From Bdellovibrio sp. (GTDB taxonomy: Bacteria; Bdellovibrionota; Bdellovibrionia; Bdellovibrionales; Bdellovibrionaceae), in NCBI GenBank assembly GCA_025359945.1, contig JANYDD010000003.1, positions 1-40,956 on the forward strand: a DNA stretch of 40,956 nt, read 5' to 3'. The translations under genes and the position numbers were made by a program. Below are positions 9,495-20,121 of this stretch, one piece after another. The notes beneath the pieces were generated by a model that did not search any database, was not told the origin of the DNA, and saw only the letters and a list, made by a program, of their open reading frames with translations. Position 1 is the stretch's first letter. Every line of letters starts with the position of its first letter.

Positions 9495-10088
9495 ATGTCT
9501 TTTTTCAACCATAACGCCAAAGAAATTCACTGCAAAATTGTTTACTACGGTCCTTCACTTGGAGGCAAAACTACAAATTTGCAGTGGGTTTACCAAGAAA
9601 CTGCTCAGGATCAAAAATCTAAATTGGTCGCTTTAAACACCAATATTGAACGCACACTTTTTTTTGATTTTTTACCTCTGAATTTAGGCGAAATCCGCGG
9701 ATTTAAAACTCGCTTTCATCTGTACACGGTACCAGGGCAAGTGGTTTACGATGCCTCTAGAAAATTAATTCTTAAAGGTTTAGATGGAATTATTTTTGTT
9801 GCGGATTCCCAGGTCGAACGTATGGAAGAAAACTTGGAATCCCTGCGAAACTTGGAAAGTAACCTTGAAGCCCAAGGATATAACATCAAAGACATCCCGT
9901 TAGTGTTCCAGTACAACAAACGCGATCTTCCCAATGCGGCGTCAATGGTGGATTTGCGATCGCAGTTAAACACCTTTAATGCTCCTGAATTTGAAGCCAC
10001 AGCGTCCGAAGGCCACGGTGTGATGGATGCGTTGAAGACGGTTTCTAAATCTATTGTTCACGTATTAAAAGGCGGATCAACGATCTGA
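9495..10088 (+). CDS. mglA: MglA-type Ras-like polarity GTPase
   Basis: The product is 197 residues. The G1 loop is G19-PSLGG-K25-TT, switch II is TVPGQ (Gly81, Gln82), and G4 is NKRD (141-144). ERTLFFDFLPLNLGEIRGFKTRFHLYT is nearly identical in pattern to Myxococcus MglA. In myxobacteria MglA-GTP marks the leading pole and is switched off by MglB; in Bdellovibrio MglA acts at the invasive pole. No mglB gene is adjacent. The gene sits inside a replication/recombination operon, directly after recR and overlapping nadA (TGATG). Confidence 0.95.
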   Translation: MSFFNHNAKEIHCKIVYYGPSLGGKTTNLQWVYQETAQDQKSKLVALNTNIERTLFFDFLPLNLGEIRGFKTRFHLYTVPGQVVYDASRKLILKGLDGIIFVADSQVERMEENLESLRNLESNLEAQGYNIKDIPLVFQYNKRDLPNAASMVDLRSQLNTFNAPEFEATASEGHGVMDALKTVSKSIVHVLKGGSTI

Positions 10089-11065
10089 TGAATCCCTCGT
10101 ACGACTTGCGTTTTGAAATTCAAAAGTTAAAAAAAGAAAAAGACGTCACAATCTTGGCGCACTTTTATGAAGAAGGCGAAATCCAAGACCTAGCGGATTT
10201 TGTGGGGGATAGTTTTTATTTGGCGCAAATGGGTCAAAAAATTCAAAGCCAGGCCATTCTTTTAGCGGGCGTAGTTTTTATGGCCGAGAGTGTGAAAATT
10301 CTAAATCCCGAAAAAACCGTTTTGGTTCCTGATTTAAATGCCGGATGTTCGTTAGTTGAGGGATCTCCGTATGTGGACTATTTGGCTTGGCGTTTGAAAT
10401 ATCCAACAGGCATCGCCGTAACGTACATAAATTCCAGCGCTGAGGTTAAAGCGATTTCAGATGTGATTGTAACGTCTAGTAATGCGCAAAAAATTGTTGA
10501 ATCTATCCCGAAAGATCAGCCCATTTTATTTGGCCCCGATCAAAATTTGGGCCGCTATTTATCTACTAAGATCGGACGACCTTTTGAACTTTGGCCTGGG
10601 GATTGCGAAGTCCATGTGTTGTTTCACGCCCAAAGACTTTATGAATTGATTCAAGCTCATCCCGAAGCGCGAGTGATAGCTCATCCTGAGTGCGATGAAT
10701 CAGTTTTAAAATACGCGCACGTGGTGGGATCAACTTCGCGCCTGCTTGAAGAAGTCAAAAATCATCCAGCAAAAGTTTTTATCGTCGCTACCGAAACAGG
10801 AATTTTTCACCAGATGAAAAGGCTAAGACCAGATGTCGAGCTGATCCAAGCGCCCACCGCCGACCAATGCGGCTGCAACAACTGCCCCTACATGAAATTA
10901 AATACGCTTGAGAAAATAAAACGCACTATAGTTTCTTTCCAACCGCAGGTGAACGTCAGCGAGCCTTTAAGAAAAAGGGCAGAAATTTCGCTGCAACGAA
11001 TGATGGATATCACGATAGGAAAAAAAGTTGAATGGCCGCGCGAATTCCAACCACCAAAGATTTAA
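10088..11065 (+). CDS. nadA: Quinolinate synthase A
   Basis: The 325-residue enzyme condenses iminoaspartate (from NadB) with dihydroxyacetone phosphate to give quinolinate for NAD synthesis. The repeated NadA pattern is clear: ILAHFYEEGEIQDLADFVGDS, VPDLNAGCSLVEG with Cys87, the Cys in IAHPECDESV, and the Cys cluster in DQCGCNNCPYMKLN. Three such Cys positions hold the [4Fe-4S] cluster in the family. It overlaps mglA by one base. nadB and nadC are not in the window. Confidence 0.96.
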   Translation: MNPSYDLRFEIQKLKKEKDVTILAHFYEEGEIQDLADFVGDSFYLAQMGQKIQSQAILLAGVVFMAESVKILNPEKTVLVPDLNAGCSLVEGSPYVDYLAWRLKYPTGIAVTYINSSAEVKAISDVIVTSSNAQKIVESIPKDQPILFGPDQNLGRYLSTKIGRPFELWPGDCEVHVLFHAQRLYELIQAHPEARVIAHPECDESVLKYAHVVGSTSRLLEEVKNHPAKVFIVATETGIFHQMKRLRPDVELIQAPTADQCGCNNCPYMKLNTLEKIKRTIVSFQPQVNVSEPLRKRAEISLQRMMDITIGKKVEWPREFQPPKI

Positions 11066-14878: not shown

Positions 14879-15170
14879 AACGAGCATTGGGCCTTTTCCG
14901 ATTTCAGAAAATTCGAACCAAGACTTCTAACAAAAGTGATTTGGACCATTGTCTATGTAGCGCTGATTATGACGACTCCTTAGATTTCTAGAAAATTATT
15001 CATCAGTTTAAAATTGCCCGCGGAAATCCACGCTCGCGGTAGAGCTCTGTTAATTAGTCTTCAAGCCAATGGTCCTGCTAGGAAGACTCGACTTACGTTA
15101 AACGCCTTTAGAGATTCCTCCAAAAAACCGATCTATATTTAGACTATTGAACTTTAACTGGGGGTGTATT

Positions 15171-16262
15171 TTGAAATTACAAAAGAAAAATATTTTGAGC
15201 TTGGTTTTTAGTTACGTAAAAACTAAGCGGCAGTATTTTTTATTAAGTTTTGCATTGGTTTCTATATTAGTTTTTGGTTTTCAAAACTGCGCGGATAAAT
15301 ATACGTTGCGAAATATGACGGGTTCAACCGCAGCGTCCTCGGTAGCGCCTACTGGCACTCATACGCCCTCGGTAACGGCAAACTCGGGGCCACTTCCGAT
15401 AAACCAAAAAGAGATCGCTCAATTTTTAGAACTTTTCAAAGTACGTGGTCGCTGGCTGATGGTCTCGAAAAATGGCCAGTTTGTTTTTCCCGCTGATACA
15501 GCTGTTAATTCCATTGCACAGATCAAATTGGTCGGAGGCTCGGGCGGGGACGGCGGTCGCAATCCTGGTTGCGGGGAAAGAGGCTCTAGCGGCGGCGGTG
15601 GTGGTGGCGGTTTAAGCTGCGCTTTGCTGTCGATTCATCCTCCGCAAATGTTGATTGCATTTGGTGGTGATGGCGGTCGAGGCGCTCAAGACGGCGGGCC
15701 GGGATCGTCTTGCATCAGCAGCCAAAACGGCAAAAAAGGCGTCGAACAAATTACTTATATTCGTGTCAAACCCTTGCAAGTTATTGCAAACATCGTGTTA
15801 GGCGGCGGCGGTGGAGCCGGCGGTACGGGTCGTGGTAACGGCAAGGGACAAAATCTTTCTGGCGGCGGCGGTGGTGGCGGGTATCCCGGTGGCGAAGGCG
15901 GACATTCAACTGCCGGTGACAATGCCACAGCTGGTGGGATTGGCGGTTTAGGAGCAGTGGCTCAGGACGGATTTGGATGCAATCAACCCGCTTCTGACGG
16001 AAGGAGCGGACAACCCGATCCCGGACCATCTACCTGGGGAGCAGCTGGAATTGAACGGTCTCCTGACGGAAAGAGCGCACAAATTATTTATCGTTCAGCG
16101 GAAAAAACGGGCAGCCCCGGCATTGGATTTAATTATGGATCAACTTCGACTTCGACGCCAGGAGATGAAAAAATACCATTAAGCACGCTTGAGGAAGCTG
16201 CCTACACAGGATTTCGGGGACGGCTGGAAATTAATTTGATTGGAAATGCGGCTGCTCCTTAG
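15171..16262 (+). CDS. Glycine-rich predicted lipoprotein
   Basis: I chose TTG 15171, which has GGGGTG 4 nt upstream; the frame also opens at TTG 15147. The N-terminus is basic, then hydrophobic, and ends GFQNC, an atypical lipobox with Asn before the Cys. Such FQNC ends are, as I recall, common in Bdellovibrio surface proteins. After about 50 residues come three long Gly-rich blocks (GGSGGDGG, SSGGGGGGG, LSGGGGGGGYPGGEGG) separated by short strands and Cys-containing segments. This looks like a secreted beta-rich structural or adhesin protein. Its function is unknown. It converges on the metallophosphoesterase gene with a 29-nt gap. Confidence 0.75.
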   Translation: MKLQKKNILSLVFSYVKTKRQYFLLSFALVSILVFGFQNCADKYTLRNMTGSTAASSVAPTGTHTPSVTANSGPLPINQKEIAQFLELFKVRGRWLMVSKNGQFVFPADTAVNSIAQIKLVGGSGGDGGRNPGCGERGSSGGGGGGGLSCALLSIHPPQMLIAFGGDGGRGAQDGGPGSSCISSQNGKKGVEQITYIRVKPLQVIANIVLGGGGGAGGTGRGNGKGQNLSGGGGGGGYPGGEGGHSTAGDNATAGGIGGLGAVAQDGFGCNQPASDGRSGQPDPGPSTWGAAGIERSPDGKSAQIIYRSAEKTGSPGIGFNYGSTSTSTPGDEKIPLSTLEEAAYTGFRGRLEINLIGNAAAP

Positions 16263-16291
16263 AAACATCGCATTTTTTTACCTGGCACCAA

Positions 16292-18709
16292 CTACCGCAG
16301 GAAGTCGCTGGGGTCTGCTGAATCTAATTCTAGTTCTTTGTATTGGTCTTCTTTATCTGGGGTTTTTCTTGGATAGCCTGGGTAGAAGAAAGTTTTTTTG
16401 TCTTGGGCTGAGACTGGGCCTTGAGCGTAGAATTCTCCGTTGATAAAAATTAAAATTTGCGCGGTTCCTTCTTCGGTTTCAATTCCCATTGCTTGAACCG
16501 TTCGACTTAAGAAACCTTTTGAATAACCCAGACCTTGCTTTGCACCCATTCCCACATTAAGAACTTCGTTTTTGCGCTCGACAGCGTGCGTGTGACCAAA
16601 GAACGCGCCGTTGGTGCCCACTTGGTAGGACCGCATACTTCCGGCAGAAAAGCCTGCGCCTTTGTCTCCGTGAATTGAAAACTCGCTGCCACCAGGGCGA
16701 GTTTTAAACGACTCACCGGCTTCTAAAAACATCACTCGAGGCAAAAGTTCTGGATCGATTCTTGTGACCACAAAATATTCCAAAGGATTAAACGGAATTT
16801 TATCGCCAAACTTTTGGATGTGATCCGAGTATGCTTTTTGCAAAAAACTCCACATCGGGTTGTGAGCTGGAAAATCATTGTTTTTTGGATCTGAAAGCCA
16901 TCGTCGAACCCAGTCCCCATGATTATCTACAGGCAAAACGGCTGTCGTTCGTGGTGAAGCCCCCAACTGGGCCTCTAAATAACGAACATAGGCCATCATT
17001 CCATTGTCTACATCCAATTCGCCGGCCAATACCTTCGCCTGCATAATTAAATAATTTTTTTTGTCCCAATGTGAAAGTTCATTTCCAGAATATCCGTCGC
17101 CATGAAAAAGATATTCTGGTTCTAATTCTGCAATTTCTTTTAATGAAGCTTTCTCGAATTCTGGAGACTGTTCGCCGATATGGGGATCACCCAACACCAT
17201 CGCTTTGATTCTGGTTTTTTCAACGCGCCCGGTGCTGGAGTAGCGTCGGTTCAAGTCAATAAGCGATCCCGTAGCTGCATCAAATTGAATTTGCCGAACA
17301 TGAAAAAAACCATGATGAGCAAAATCTAAAGCATTATCGCTGCCCACCGATTTTTCCAAAAGTATCAAACCCATTCGGTGGTCTTCTTTTGCAATATCGG
17401 CGGCTCTTTGGCGTTGGGGCGATTTAGCGGGATAATAAAGATTGTTGATCACGCCAGTAGTAAACAAAATATGAGGCGCTTGGTGTGGGCCACTGGCATT
17501 ATCGTAAGTAGGCATGGTTCGAACATGCAGTTTTGGACTGGCAAAAATTTGTTGCTGTCCGCGAGCCCCCGCGCGATCAACACCCACCAATGGATTCACC
17601 TGTGTCGGAAGGACCTTGATACTTGAAATCGCTAAGTTCGGACCAAGCTCAATTCCCCAAGGGACCAAGTGCGCATTTTCGTAGTTACGAATTTGTGGAT
17701 CTAAGTAGGGTGAATTTTTTGAAGTAGGAACCACTAAAATCGGAACGTTTCGACCGACGGATTTGGCCAAAGTTTGCGCCGCTTTCATCAACGTCTGATT
17801 GATCTCGGGATAGCGAACGACTTTTTTCTTGCCGATGGTGACGACTTCACCGGGCATTAGCGAAACGACCACGATGTTGTCGCTCTCGACAGTTAAGGTT
17901 TTTAAATTTTCTAAGTAGGCTTCATCATAGAAATGATTATCGAAATAGTTTTCGAAAGCCTGCGGACGAAGTTTAAAAGTCAGATCTCGCAAATGGTTGT
18001 AGTCTTTAAAAATTCCTTTTTTACCCACCAATAAAGAGTACTGATCAACGCTTATGCCTGCGGCCTTGGCGATCTCGGCCTCTGTAGGATTTCTTTGCGT
18101 ATCTTTCAGCGCCGATGCAAAGGCATCAACCAATTTATTGCGCATTTTGTAGAGTGTCGCAGTGTCGTATTCTTTGAGTCTTAGGTAAGCCCCTTTGCCC
18201 GCCCCATAGAGCGCATTGATTTCGGCAACTGAAACTCCCATTTCTTCGGCGGATTCACGCGCGTCTGGCAGCCTAAGATTTCTGGTCAAAAATTTTCCAA
18301 TGTGGTCGGCATACTTTTTTTCGAACTGCACAAAAAGATCAGGCGAGGTTTGCTTTGCCGCAGCTACCATTTCTAGAATCTGATCGGCTATCACTTCTAA
18401 TTTTTTTCCCTTCTCAAAGGCTTCACCCGAGCGACCAAAAAAGAAACTTTCAACGGCGTCTTTGTTAACTCCCAGGCGGTGGACGTAGTCGTACACTGTT
18501 GGAATTCGTTTGAAATCTTTTAAAATGGCTTCAGTGGCTTTACGAACTTCCTTAGACTTTAGTGACGGCGTGGGTTTCTGAAGAGCCGGCGAGGCCAATT
18601 TCTTGGTCGGTTTTCGACAGGAATTGGCCGCCGCTAAAGAGCTTTGTGCCGCAAATATCATTGCCGAAAATACAAATAAAAACTTTATATTTTTTAGACT
18701 GATCATCAT
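16292..18709 (-). CDS. Exported metallophosphoesterase with three HTH-like repeats (phage T5 A1-like)
   Basis: The product has 805 residues. Residues 1-26 are a signal peptide ending SLA-A. Three related segments follow at 68-112, 146-193 and 206-249, each of the form R-x-P-(T/D)...(A/V)xxxG(V/I)(S/N)...(F/Y/V)G..., resembling helix-turn-helix units. The C-terminal part holds a complete set of calcineurin-like metal ligands: Asp508/His510 (LGDPHIG), Asp538 (HGDGYSGN), Asn596-His597 (DNHGD), His680 and GHTH (705-708). The segment with VVPTSKN, PYLDPQIRNYE, VLPTQVNPL and IFASPK resembles, from memory, the phage T5 A1 DNA-transfer family. AGGAAAG precedes the start, which overlaps the upstream gene by 4 bp. 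The function is not established. Confidence 0.75.
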   Translation of the reverse strand: MMISLKNIKFLFVFSAMIFAAQSSLAAANSCRKPTKKLASPALQKPTPSLKSKEVRKATEAILKDFKRIPTVYDYVHRLGVNKDAVESFFFGRSGEAFEKGKKLEVIADQILEMVAAAKQTSPDLFVQFEKKYADHIGKFLTRNLRLPDARESAEEMGVSVAEINALYGAGKGAYLRLKEYDTATLYKMRNKLVDAFASALKDTQRNPTEAEIAKAAGISVDQYSLLVGKKGIFKDYNHLRDLTFKLRPQAFENYFDNHFYDEAYLENLKTLTVESDNIVVVSLMPGEVVTIGKKKVVRYPEINQTLMKAAQTLAKSVGRNVPILVVPTSKNSPYLDPQIRNYENAHLVPWGIELGPNLAISSIKVLPTQVNPLVGVDRAGARGQQQIFASPKLHVRTMPTYDNASGPHQAPHILFTTGVINNLYYPAKSPQRQRAADIAKEDHRMGLILLEKSVGSDNALDFAHHGFFHVRQIQFDAATGSLIDLNRRYSSTGRVEKTRIKAMVLGDPHIGEQSPEFEKASLKEIAELEPEYLFHGDGYSGNELSHWDKKNYLIMQAKVLAGELDVDNGMMAYVRYLEAQLGASPRTTAVLPVDNHGDWVRRWLSDPKNNDFPAHNPMWSFLQKAYSDHIQKFGDKIPFNPLEYFVVTRIDPELLPRVMFLEAGESFKTRPGGSEFSIHGDKGAGFSAGSMRSYQVGTNGAFFGHTHAVERKNEVLNVGMGAKQGLGYSKGFLSRTVQAMGIETEEGTAQILIFINGEFYAQGPVSAQDKKTFFYPGYPRKTPDKEDQYKELELDSADPSDFLR

Positions 18710-19860
18710 GACGTCTTTCCTTTTGATCGCGCACTTTTGCGGCAGGATGCAGTTGCAGAAACCCCTTTAGGCTTTATTTTCTTTGTCGGCTTTCGAGCAG
18801 ATGCTGCTGGCCCTGTTGACCTGGATGGCCCAGATGAGTAAAGAAATGCAAATTCACTGCGCTCTTCAGCTCGGACGAGGCGAAGACTGCCCGACGAGGT
18901 CATTACAGAAATTTCTTCTCCGAAAAAAGGCGCACCCGAATTTAAACCCTTGGGATTAAAAAGAACTATTTTAAAGGGCATCGGGCGAAATTTTCCGCGC
19001 GCCAAAGACTGCAAGAAGTTGATCGTCGGCAGCCATGTTTCAAAATCGGTTTCGGCGATAACTACTAAATGATTGTATTCGCGCTGCTGGCCATCCGAAG
19101 ACCATCGCCAATTTGCGGGCGTTTGGTGCAAAGGCACTTTCCCGATCATTTCATAGACTGTGTGCCGAATAAAATCGGGAATTCGACCTTTAAAATCTTC
19201 GCCAAATCGATCAAATTCAGGCTGACCCAATGGATAAATATGTTTTTCAGAGGGCAAATGGGCCCAACTCTCGCGCTGACCTGCAAACTGAAGAGCTTGA
19301 AGAAATTCAAGGCGGTCTTGAGATCGATCAGAGTAAACCGCTAAACTCCCAGCCAGTTCAGGATCCATCAGTGCCGCTGTTACCAATGACCAAGTAGGAC
19401 CTTTGAAATTTTGATTCGGATCTAGCTGATAAACTTTTTCGACATCCTTTAAAAGAAAACTGGCTTGCCCCGGAGCTGGTGGAGAAAAATATCGATAAGA
19501 ATCAGGGTGACGAAGAAAGTAATTTTTCGCGAAAATCTTCTTATCGCCATCCGCAATCGCAACAGCCGGCGCAGCCCTTCCCGCATCGTGGGAATGTTTT
19601 GCAAGGTGGGGTTGAAGGATTTCGAACTCTTGGGGGGTGACGGTAATTTCCTGAGGGCCCTTTCCTAAGTCATCAGTGTACGTCAATCCCTTAGTTCTTT
19701 TGAATAGCACGATAGGGGTTTGAAATGTTCCTCCCTGAGAAGCTCTTGATTCAAAAAGAGTATTAAAATTAATTAGGAAAAGAGTTTCTGACCGGACGTT
19801 TGGCGAAACCACAAGCATCAATACTAGCGCGATATAAAAAGATCCACAGACAAGCCTCAT
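18706..19860 (-). CDS. Exported HAD-like protein with degenerate active site
   Basis: The start is ATG 19860 with GAGGGGG just upstream; the open frame extends further up, but from 19860 it begins with a good signal peptide (384 residues in total). The layout resembles a HAD family: a first strand with LINFNTLFES where DxDxT is expected (Asn31 and Asn33 replace Asp), a TPQEFEIL segment, GPTWSLVTAALMDPEL, and a second strand SLAVYSDRSQDRLEFLQAL. The loss of the nucleophile Asp suggests it does not act as a phosphatase. The C-terminal tail is basic (ARKPTKKIKPKG), echoed by RKPTKK near the start of the partner protein. It overlaps the metallophosphoesterase gene by 4 bp, so the two are made together. 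Confidence 0.65.
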   Translation of the reverse strand: MRLVCGSFYIALVLMLVVSPNVRSETLFLINFNTLFESRASQGGTFQTPIVLFKRTKGLTYTDDLGKGPQEITVTPQEFEILQPHLAKHSHDAGRAAPAVAIADGDKKIFAKNYFLRHPDSYRYFSPPAPGQASFLLKDVEKVYQLDPNQNFKGPTWSLVTAALMDPELAGSLAVYSDRSQDRLEFLQALQFAGQRESWAHLPSEKHIYPLGQPEFDRFGEDFKGRIPDFIRHTVYEMIGKVPLHQTPANWRWSSDGQQREYNHLVVIAETDFETWLPTINFLQSLARGKFRPMPFKIVLFNPKGLNSGAPFFGEEISVMTSSGSLRLVRAEERSEFAFLYSSGPSRSTGPAASARKPTKKIKPKGVSATASCRKSARSKGKTS

Positions 19861-20121
19861 ATTCCCCCTCAGAAATAATTGGTTTGCGAAAATTAAGAAA
19901 AAATTAACTTGGTTGTTTTCATTTGCACTTCGCAACTGGCGCGAAATCCCACCCCTCAGCCAATCTGCAAAAAATTAGAATCAATTAAAAGAAGGGGGTC
20001 AAATTTTTAATTGTCAGCGTTGAATTCATCGGCAGAAAAGCCAAATTGATGAGTCCTTTCAATTGACCGCCTGCGCCTTAAGCGCCGAATTATCAGGCAC
20101 CACCGGCGTTTTGATGGACGC

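Follow-up and report, generated by a model that had tools for sequence, protein, structure and literature searches.

An exported bacterial branch of the phage T5 A1 family, encoded beside a HAD-like partner and carrying a matching cysteine tail

Results and discussion

An 805-residue protein of Bdellovibrio sp. belongs to a bacterial, exported branch of the phage T5 A1 family, and what is new about this branch is that it is exported, paired with the product of the gene directly upstream and cysteine-tailed. The explanation that we prefer for the whole is an exported phosphodiesterase of the T5 A1 family that cuts DNA outside the cytoplasm and is paired with a HAD-like protein via cysteine tails; we consider it about evenly balanced between right and wrong. 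The window, i.e., the whole stretch of DNA that was analyzed, comprises 40,956 nucleotides from an assembly of 2.74 Mb in 106 contigs. The A1-like gene is the second gene of a two-gene unit and shares an ATGA overlap with the preceding ORF (Table 1). On its other side it adjoins an ORF on the plus strand (window positions 15147-16262) for a glycine-rich, apparently exported protein without a family match.

Table 1. Positions of the A1-like gene, its partner gene and their features in the window
Feature	Coordinates	Strand	Basis
A1-like metallophosphoesterase ORF, predicted exported, 805 aa	16292..18709	minus	ATG start; PHROG 1745 E 1.1e-50; BLASTP against T5 A1 E 2e-19
Domain common to phage A1, residues ~290-762	16424..17842	minus	PHROGs, tblastn, BLASTP, alignment
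Calcineurin-like metallophosphoesterase part, residues ~500-710	16580..17212	minus	Motifs GDPH, HGD, DNH, HGD, GHTH; fold comparison
HTH-like unit 3, residues 183-227	18029..18163	minus	Pfam Sigma70_r3 E 1.5e-7; pLDDT 80-96
HTH-like unit 2, residues 123-169	18203..18343	minus	Model helices, low confidence; resembles unit 3, 5/2000 shuffles
HTH-like unit 1, residues 52-90	18440..18556	minus	Model helices, low confidence; resembles unit 3, 0/2000 shuffles
Cys31, sole cysteine of the A1-like protein	18617..18619	minus	Cys at positions 21-44 in 28/28 exported relatives with intact start
Predicted Sec-type signal peptide, residues 1-28	18626..18709	minus	Read from sequence; also in exported relatives with intact start
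Partner: predicted exported HAD-like protein, 384 aa	18706..19860	minus	ATG at 19860, GAGGGGG upstream; ATGA overlap; family member directly upstream in 26/28 judgeable loci
Cys near partner C-terminus	18742..18744	minus	CRKSAR; cf. CRKPTK at Cys31 in the A1-like protein
Decayed HAD motif I of the window partner	19759..19770	minus	NFN-T; other partners with intact N-terminus have DxD

Homology to phage T5 A1

Phage T5 A1 and the A1-like protein are true homologues. Direct BLASTP alignment of the two gave 25% identity over 414 aa, and residues 352-762 matched PHROG 1745 ('DNA transfer protein'), the family to which T5 A1 itself is assigned at E 8.5e-244. With tblastn at an E limit of 1, similar genes were found in 1090 phage records, the best matches being annotated as A1-like or DNA transfer proteins (E 7e-21 and weaker). 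In a Foldseek comparison with BFVD, the predicted structure matched phage proteins (E 1e-38) and phage metallophosphoesterases (E 4e-7). The resemblance to T5 A1 that the original prediction had named is thus confirmed by direct alignment, by PHROG 1745, by phage genes annotated as A1 and by structure comparison, and the LPTQVNPL and IFASPK region that it had pointed to falls within the stretch aligned with T5 A1. A sequence search of the PDB gave an aldehyde dehydrogenase match at E 0.07, which is a chance hit, and PDB searches with alignments yielded nothing convincing.

The ligand set DxH, GD, NH, H and GHxH of calcineurin-like metallophosphoesterases is present in the A1-like protein. The corresponding residues are D508, H510, D538, N596, H597, H680, H706 and H708. 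None of them varies among 45 aligned sequences, of which 42 come from phages (T5 A1 included) and the others are the window protein and two exported relatives, so the claim of a complete ligand set also stands. All eight positions are filled in T5 A1 and in those exported relatives that cover them, except for replacement of H706 by aspartate in four. These four are the exported A1s of loci L050, L054, L056 and L057, which read ADSH, GDSH, GDRH and ADAH, respectively, and in which the choice of metal may change. The model qualifies as a metallophosphoesterase fold by its match to a phage metallophosphoesterase (Foldseek E 3.6e-7, prob 1.0). Its top PDB structure match was purple acid phosphatase 3zk4, a weak one (E 0.02), and Pfam Metallophos was matched by one of five relatives (E 9e-5) and not by the window protein.

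Signal peptide and HTH-like units

The protein begins with MMISLKNIKFLFVFSAMIFAAQSSLAAANSC, which reads as a typical Sec signal peptide (MMISLKNIKFLFVFSAMIFAAQSSLAAA/NSC; slash, cleavage) with a charged start, a hydrophobic core and an AxA-like cleavage site. This was read directly from the A1-like sequence, and export itself remains a prediction.

The AlphaFold model (pLDDT 75.8, pTM 0.68) contains three tri-helical units in the region that follows. The third is predicted with confidence and carries a Pfam Sigma70_r3 match at residues 191-225 (31.8 bits against a cut-off of 25.3). Support for units 1 and 2, with pLDDT values of only about 50-65, consists of the low-confidence model and of internal similarity: shuffled sequences scored as well in none of 2000 trials for unit 1 against unit 3, in 5 of 2000 for unit 2 against unit 3, and in 57 of 2000 for unit 1 against unit 2. 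A profile grown from the units found three similarly spaced copies in the relatives at L228 and L232 and fewer in others, whereas neither shuffled copies nor the phage sequences gave a match. The E-values of this profile are optimistic because some of the sequences that it scores were used to build it.

The original prediction had named a signal peptide, three related HTH-type units and T5 A1 homology, and had proposed structure prediction and a repeat-against-repeat comparison as checks. Both checks were run and agree with it, the first two HTH-like units at low model confidence. What it missed were the conserved HAD-like partner and the terminal cysteines, which are the most informative features of the locus.

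Distribution in the phylum

An A1-like gene was found in 32 of 369 Bdellovibrionota genomes, 29 encoding the exported type and three a cytoplasmic type (L058, L059, L218). The exported forms occur sporadically across the phylum, and within the order most genomes lack an A1-like gene (15 of 141 have one). A related-locus search with a closer pair identified two named relatives, in a Bdellovibrionales MAG (LNDT01000001.1) and a Bdellovibrionota MAG (CAUJGS010000049.1); the same search started from one protein or from a diverse alignment returned no loci. Other bacteria gave single matches on plasmids, other phyla not having been searched genome by genome.

Given the phage kinship, the gene might be the leftover of a recent prophage and not a bacterial gene at all. 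Cytoplasmic A1s without a signal peptide do exist in the phylum in element-like settings (L058, L059, L218 and plasmid pBdHM1), which speaks for such an origin. In the tree, however, the exported forms stand apart from the phage forms (branch support 100/100 on the phage side and a weak 61/78 on the exported side), the two-gene unit is kept across the phylum, and the scanned neighbors in the window are ordinary chromosomal genes (recD2, a glycosyltransferase and a DegT-type aminotransferase). We therefore reject a recent prophage remnant as very improbable. The three cytoplasmic forms are placed near the phages on long branches, and cytoplasmic A1-like proteins of the phylum are a possible source of the exported branch. 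Those in element-like surroundings lie at L058:5070-7175 (G076), L059:6810-8240 (G001), L218:4731-6983 (G194) and L338:3764-5692 (pBdHM1).

The HAD-like partner gene

An exported protein with HAD-phosphatase motifs is encoded directly upstream of the A1 gene in 26 of 28 judgeable loci, which represent 13 GTDB families, and the two genes usually overlap. The spacing in 25 of these loci ranges from -37 to +25 bp, -4 being commonest; in the 26th (G277) only the tail of the partner is found upstream, at the contig end. The locus of G108 was left out of the count, its A1 gene being split over two contigs, with a partner gene beside the N-terminal piece. No partner gene was found in G362 (76% complete) or G363 (90% complete). 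In the window, the likely start of the partner is the ATG with GAGGGGG just upstream, not the TTG at 19935.

Two motifs link the partner family to HAD phosphatases, a DxD close to the N-terminus and, often, a second one resembling TAR. The HAD assignment is a motif call: Pfam HAD matches of the family are sub-threshold, the model of the partner is poor (pLDDT 58), and a fold search with that model matched no HAD fold. In the window partner, the catalytic DxDGT has decayed to NFN-T and the DxD expected of a HAD phosphatase is missing. Because of this loss the window partner is probably not an enzyme, and judged from its sequence it would probably serve as a structural partner only.

A profile comparison of the partner with T5 Dmp matched over the DxDGT stretch and nowhere else; homology to Dmp is unsupported beyond this motif, and the two have not been shown to share an ancestor. 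Most genomes of the order also encode a second family, about 310 aa in length (e.g., L060:5182-6120), that carries FDWDD-like and TARG motifs; the partner profile matches its middle part only.

Terminal cysteines and matching tails

Every exported A1 with an intact start (28 of 28) has a cysteine soon after the predicted cleavage site, whereas the cytoplasmic relatives have neither a signal peptide nor this cysteine. In 21 of the 28 the mature protein contains no further cysteine, despite a mature length of about 650-930 residues in complete proteins; the figure of 21 varies with the end assigned to the signal peptide. Every partner, in turn, has a cysteine 5-24 residues from its C-terminus. 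A lipoprotein reading of the A1 cysteine was rejected since there is no lipobox, the preceding residues being ANS, ANT, AAT, ANM and similar.

The five residues that follow the cysteine are alike within a pair, as in CDGLF/CHGLF, CTKFLSSN/CVKYLSSN, CSVGYS/CEISYS and CRKSAR/CRKPTK. The BLOSUM sum of paired tails was 118, compared with -23 (sd 21) for shuffled pairings. The matching persisted when tails were shuffled only within GTDB families (p ~1.5e-4) and when one pair was drawn per GTDB family (median z 3.7, p 0.06 in the worst draw), and nothing significant was seen at control offsets. These p-values are not those of a planned test because the motif was noticed before it was tested.

The matching tails may mean that the HAD-like and A1-like proteins are directly joined by a disulfide, a reading to which we give slightly less than an even chance. 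The tails could also be a lineage-specific sorting or anchoring tag that is read by a common receptor on a few exported enzymes, the two proteins being merely two cargoes; we see this as possible, though doubtful. Two A1s without a detectable partner (G362 and G363) keep the cysteine, and other exported proteins carry a lone terminal cysteine with similar flanks: CNSRF, CPRFF, CDKTFF (an acyltransferase), CITLF, CNIHF (an M3 peptidase) and CNKLLF in G161, CSELF in G052 and CRSSEA in G000. The cysteine may for these two reasons not be meant for the partner. The flanks are, moreover, closer to those of the pair in their own genome than to those of other genomes (rank 2/120, post hoc). On the other hand, the protein lists were chosen with the data already in view, no other convincing case appeared in the sampled DNA of G127 and G305, and in G000 there were only one or two cases among 274 export-like ORFs. 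This survey covered sampled DNA of five genomes, all of them partial, and lone terminal cysteines were rare among the export-like ORFs in it. No relevant description of such a cysteine link or tag turned up in a literature search.

The exported proteins of G161 whose lone terminal cysteine has CxxxF-like surroundings are encoded at L234:1663-5301, L237:8735-15199, L242:2979-3752, L246:13239-15305 and 15431-16495, and L247:1-1480. With the M3 peptidase and the acyltransferase among them, they possibly represent a tag of wider use in sorting or linking. Shortly behind the signal peptide, a lone cysteine is also present in the products of L278:10354-11187 (G052) and of L264:13940-15055 and L326:1061-2080 (G000), in the settings CSELF, CKGRST and CRSSEA. 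Two exported proteins with a lone N-terminal cysteine are encoded near the partnerless A1-like gene of G362 (L231:4186-4659 and 9505-10695).

Proposed function

T5 A1 has long been puzzling. Both host DNA degradation and second-step DNA transfer depend on it as an essential factor (PMC13250531), yet according to a 2021 paper no nuclease activity had been reported for it (PMC8541194). It also associates with RNA polymerase (PMC3556154), and in view of these two observations it could affect DNA indirectly. Transcription cannot be the task of an exported homologue, which nevertheless keeps all metal ligands, and on this ground we argue that the conserved activity is phosphodiester hydrolysis. As regards host DNA degradation and second-step transfer, the nucleoid of its own cell is out of reach of an exported protein. 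Export, the nearly constant partner gene and the lone cysteine at the facing ends of the two proteins suggest that a phage host-takeover enzyme has been turned into one used outside the bacterium's own cytoplasm.

We propose that the A1-like protein is a metal-dependent phosphodiesterase, probably a DNase, that works outside the cytoplasm and is linked by the cysteine tails either with its partner or with a shared receptor; activity, metal and location are inferred. It would leave the cytoplasm through Sec and fold into HTH-like units followed by a two-metal phosphodiesterase, which would probably cut DNA in the periplasm, the medium or the prey, substrate being as much an inference as place. 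The HAD-like protein would be made together with it and exported as well, after which the short tails at the C-terminus of the one and the N-terminus of the other would bring the two together. The simplest outcome would be a disulfide-linked pair, the alternative docking on one shared receptor, and the chemistry of either is inferred. In most relatives, the HAD-like protein would then strip phosphate from released nucleotides or DNA ends (again a presumed substrate), comparable to the pairing of A1 and the deoxynucleotidase Dmp in T5. In the window genome, with the HAD-like active site lost, it would be only a structural partner. A bolder version, in which a domesticated phage nuclease acquired an export signal and acts outside the cytoplasm in a covalent complex with a phosphatase-like partner through cysteine tails that co-vary by lineage, with the same tail on other exported enzymes of the phylum forming an undescribed sorting or linking code, seems to us unlikely as things stand.

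As to purpose, Bdellovibrio secretes nucleases that degrade exogenous DNA (PMC7925074), which makes breakdown of external DNA a plausible setting, although the predator status of the MAGs is not known. The exported nuclease and phosphatase could digest environmental or prey DNA for phosphate and nucleosides. This concerns purpose, not mechanism, and is compatible with the explanation that we prefer. The known nuclease secretion fits such scavenging, as does the occurrence of nuclease-like and phosphatase-like exported genes side by side; the sporadic distribution (32/369 genomes) and the loss of the partner active site in the window's own genome do not, and we rate its chances as just under even. 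Sporadic distribution, export and phage-family kinship would suit an anti-phage barrier, in which phage DNA crossing the envelope is cut in the periplasm. We think this improbable, as neither the A1-like protein nor its HAD-like partner matched in a search of the PADLOC 2023 profiles and no defense gene was recognized among the scanned window neighbors.

The ligands that the phage proteins share with the bacterial ones indicate a metallophosphoesterase active site, which is open to mutational tests in both. Being away from RNA polymerase, the exported bacterial A1 offers a clean system for testing the catalytic part alone. The cysteine tails make a simple, testable prediction on the pairing or sorting of exported enzymes in a phylum that includes predatory bacteria.

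Comparison with known systems

The secreted nucleases Bd0934 and Bd3507 of Bdellovibrio bacteriovorus (PMC7925074) resemble the proposed system in that DNA would be broken down outside the own cytoplasm. A difference is that most genomes of the order lack the A1-like gene. Protein BFD64961.1 of the Bdellovibrio plasmid pBdHM1 has an A1-type core and lacks both the signal peptide and the lone N-terminal cysteine; its neighbors are annotated only as hypothetical proteins.

The pre-early region of T5, with A1 and dmp (deoxynucleoside-5'-monophosphatase), is similar in that A1 is encoded near a protein with a HAD-type DxDGT motif. Dmp differs from the bacterial partner in being cytoplasmic and encoded three genes away from A1, and it matches the partner only over DxDGT. 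T5 A1 and the window protein share a quarter of their residues over the aligned 414 aa, eight metal ligands and phage structure matches over the core. T5 A1 is cytoplasmic, 556 aa long, contains several cysteines and lacks a signal peptide. The window protein, by contrast, is predicted to be exported and has three N-terminal HTH-like units, a HAD-like protein encoded as its partner and one cysteine, directly behind the signal peptide.
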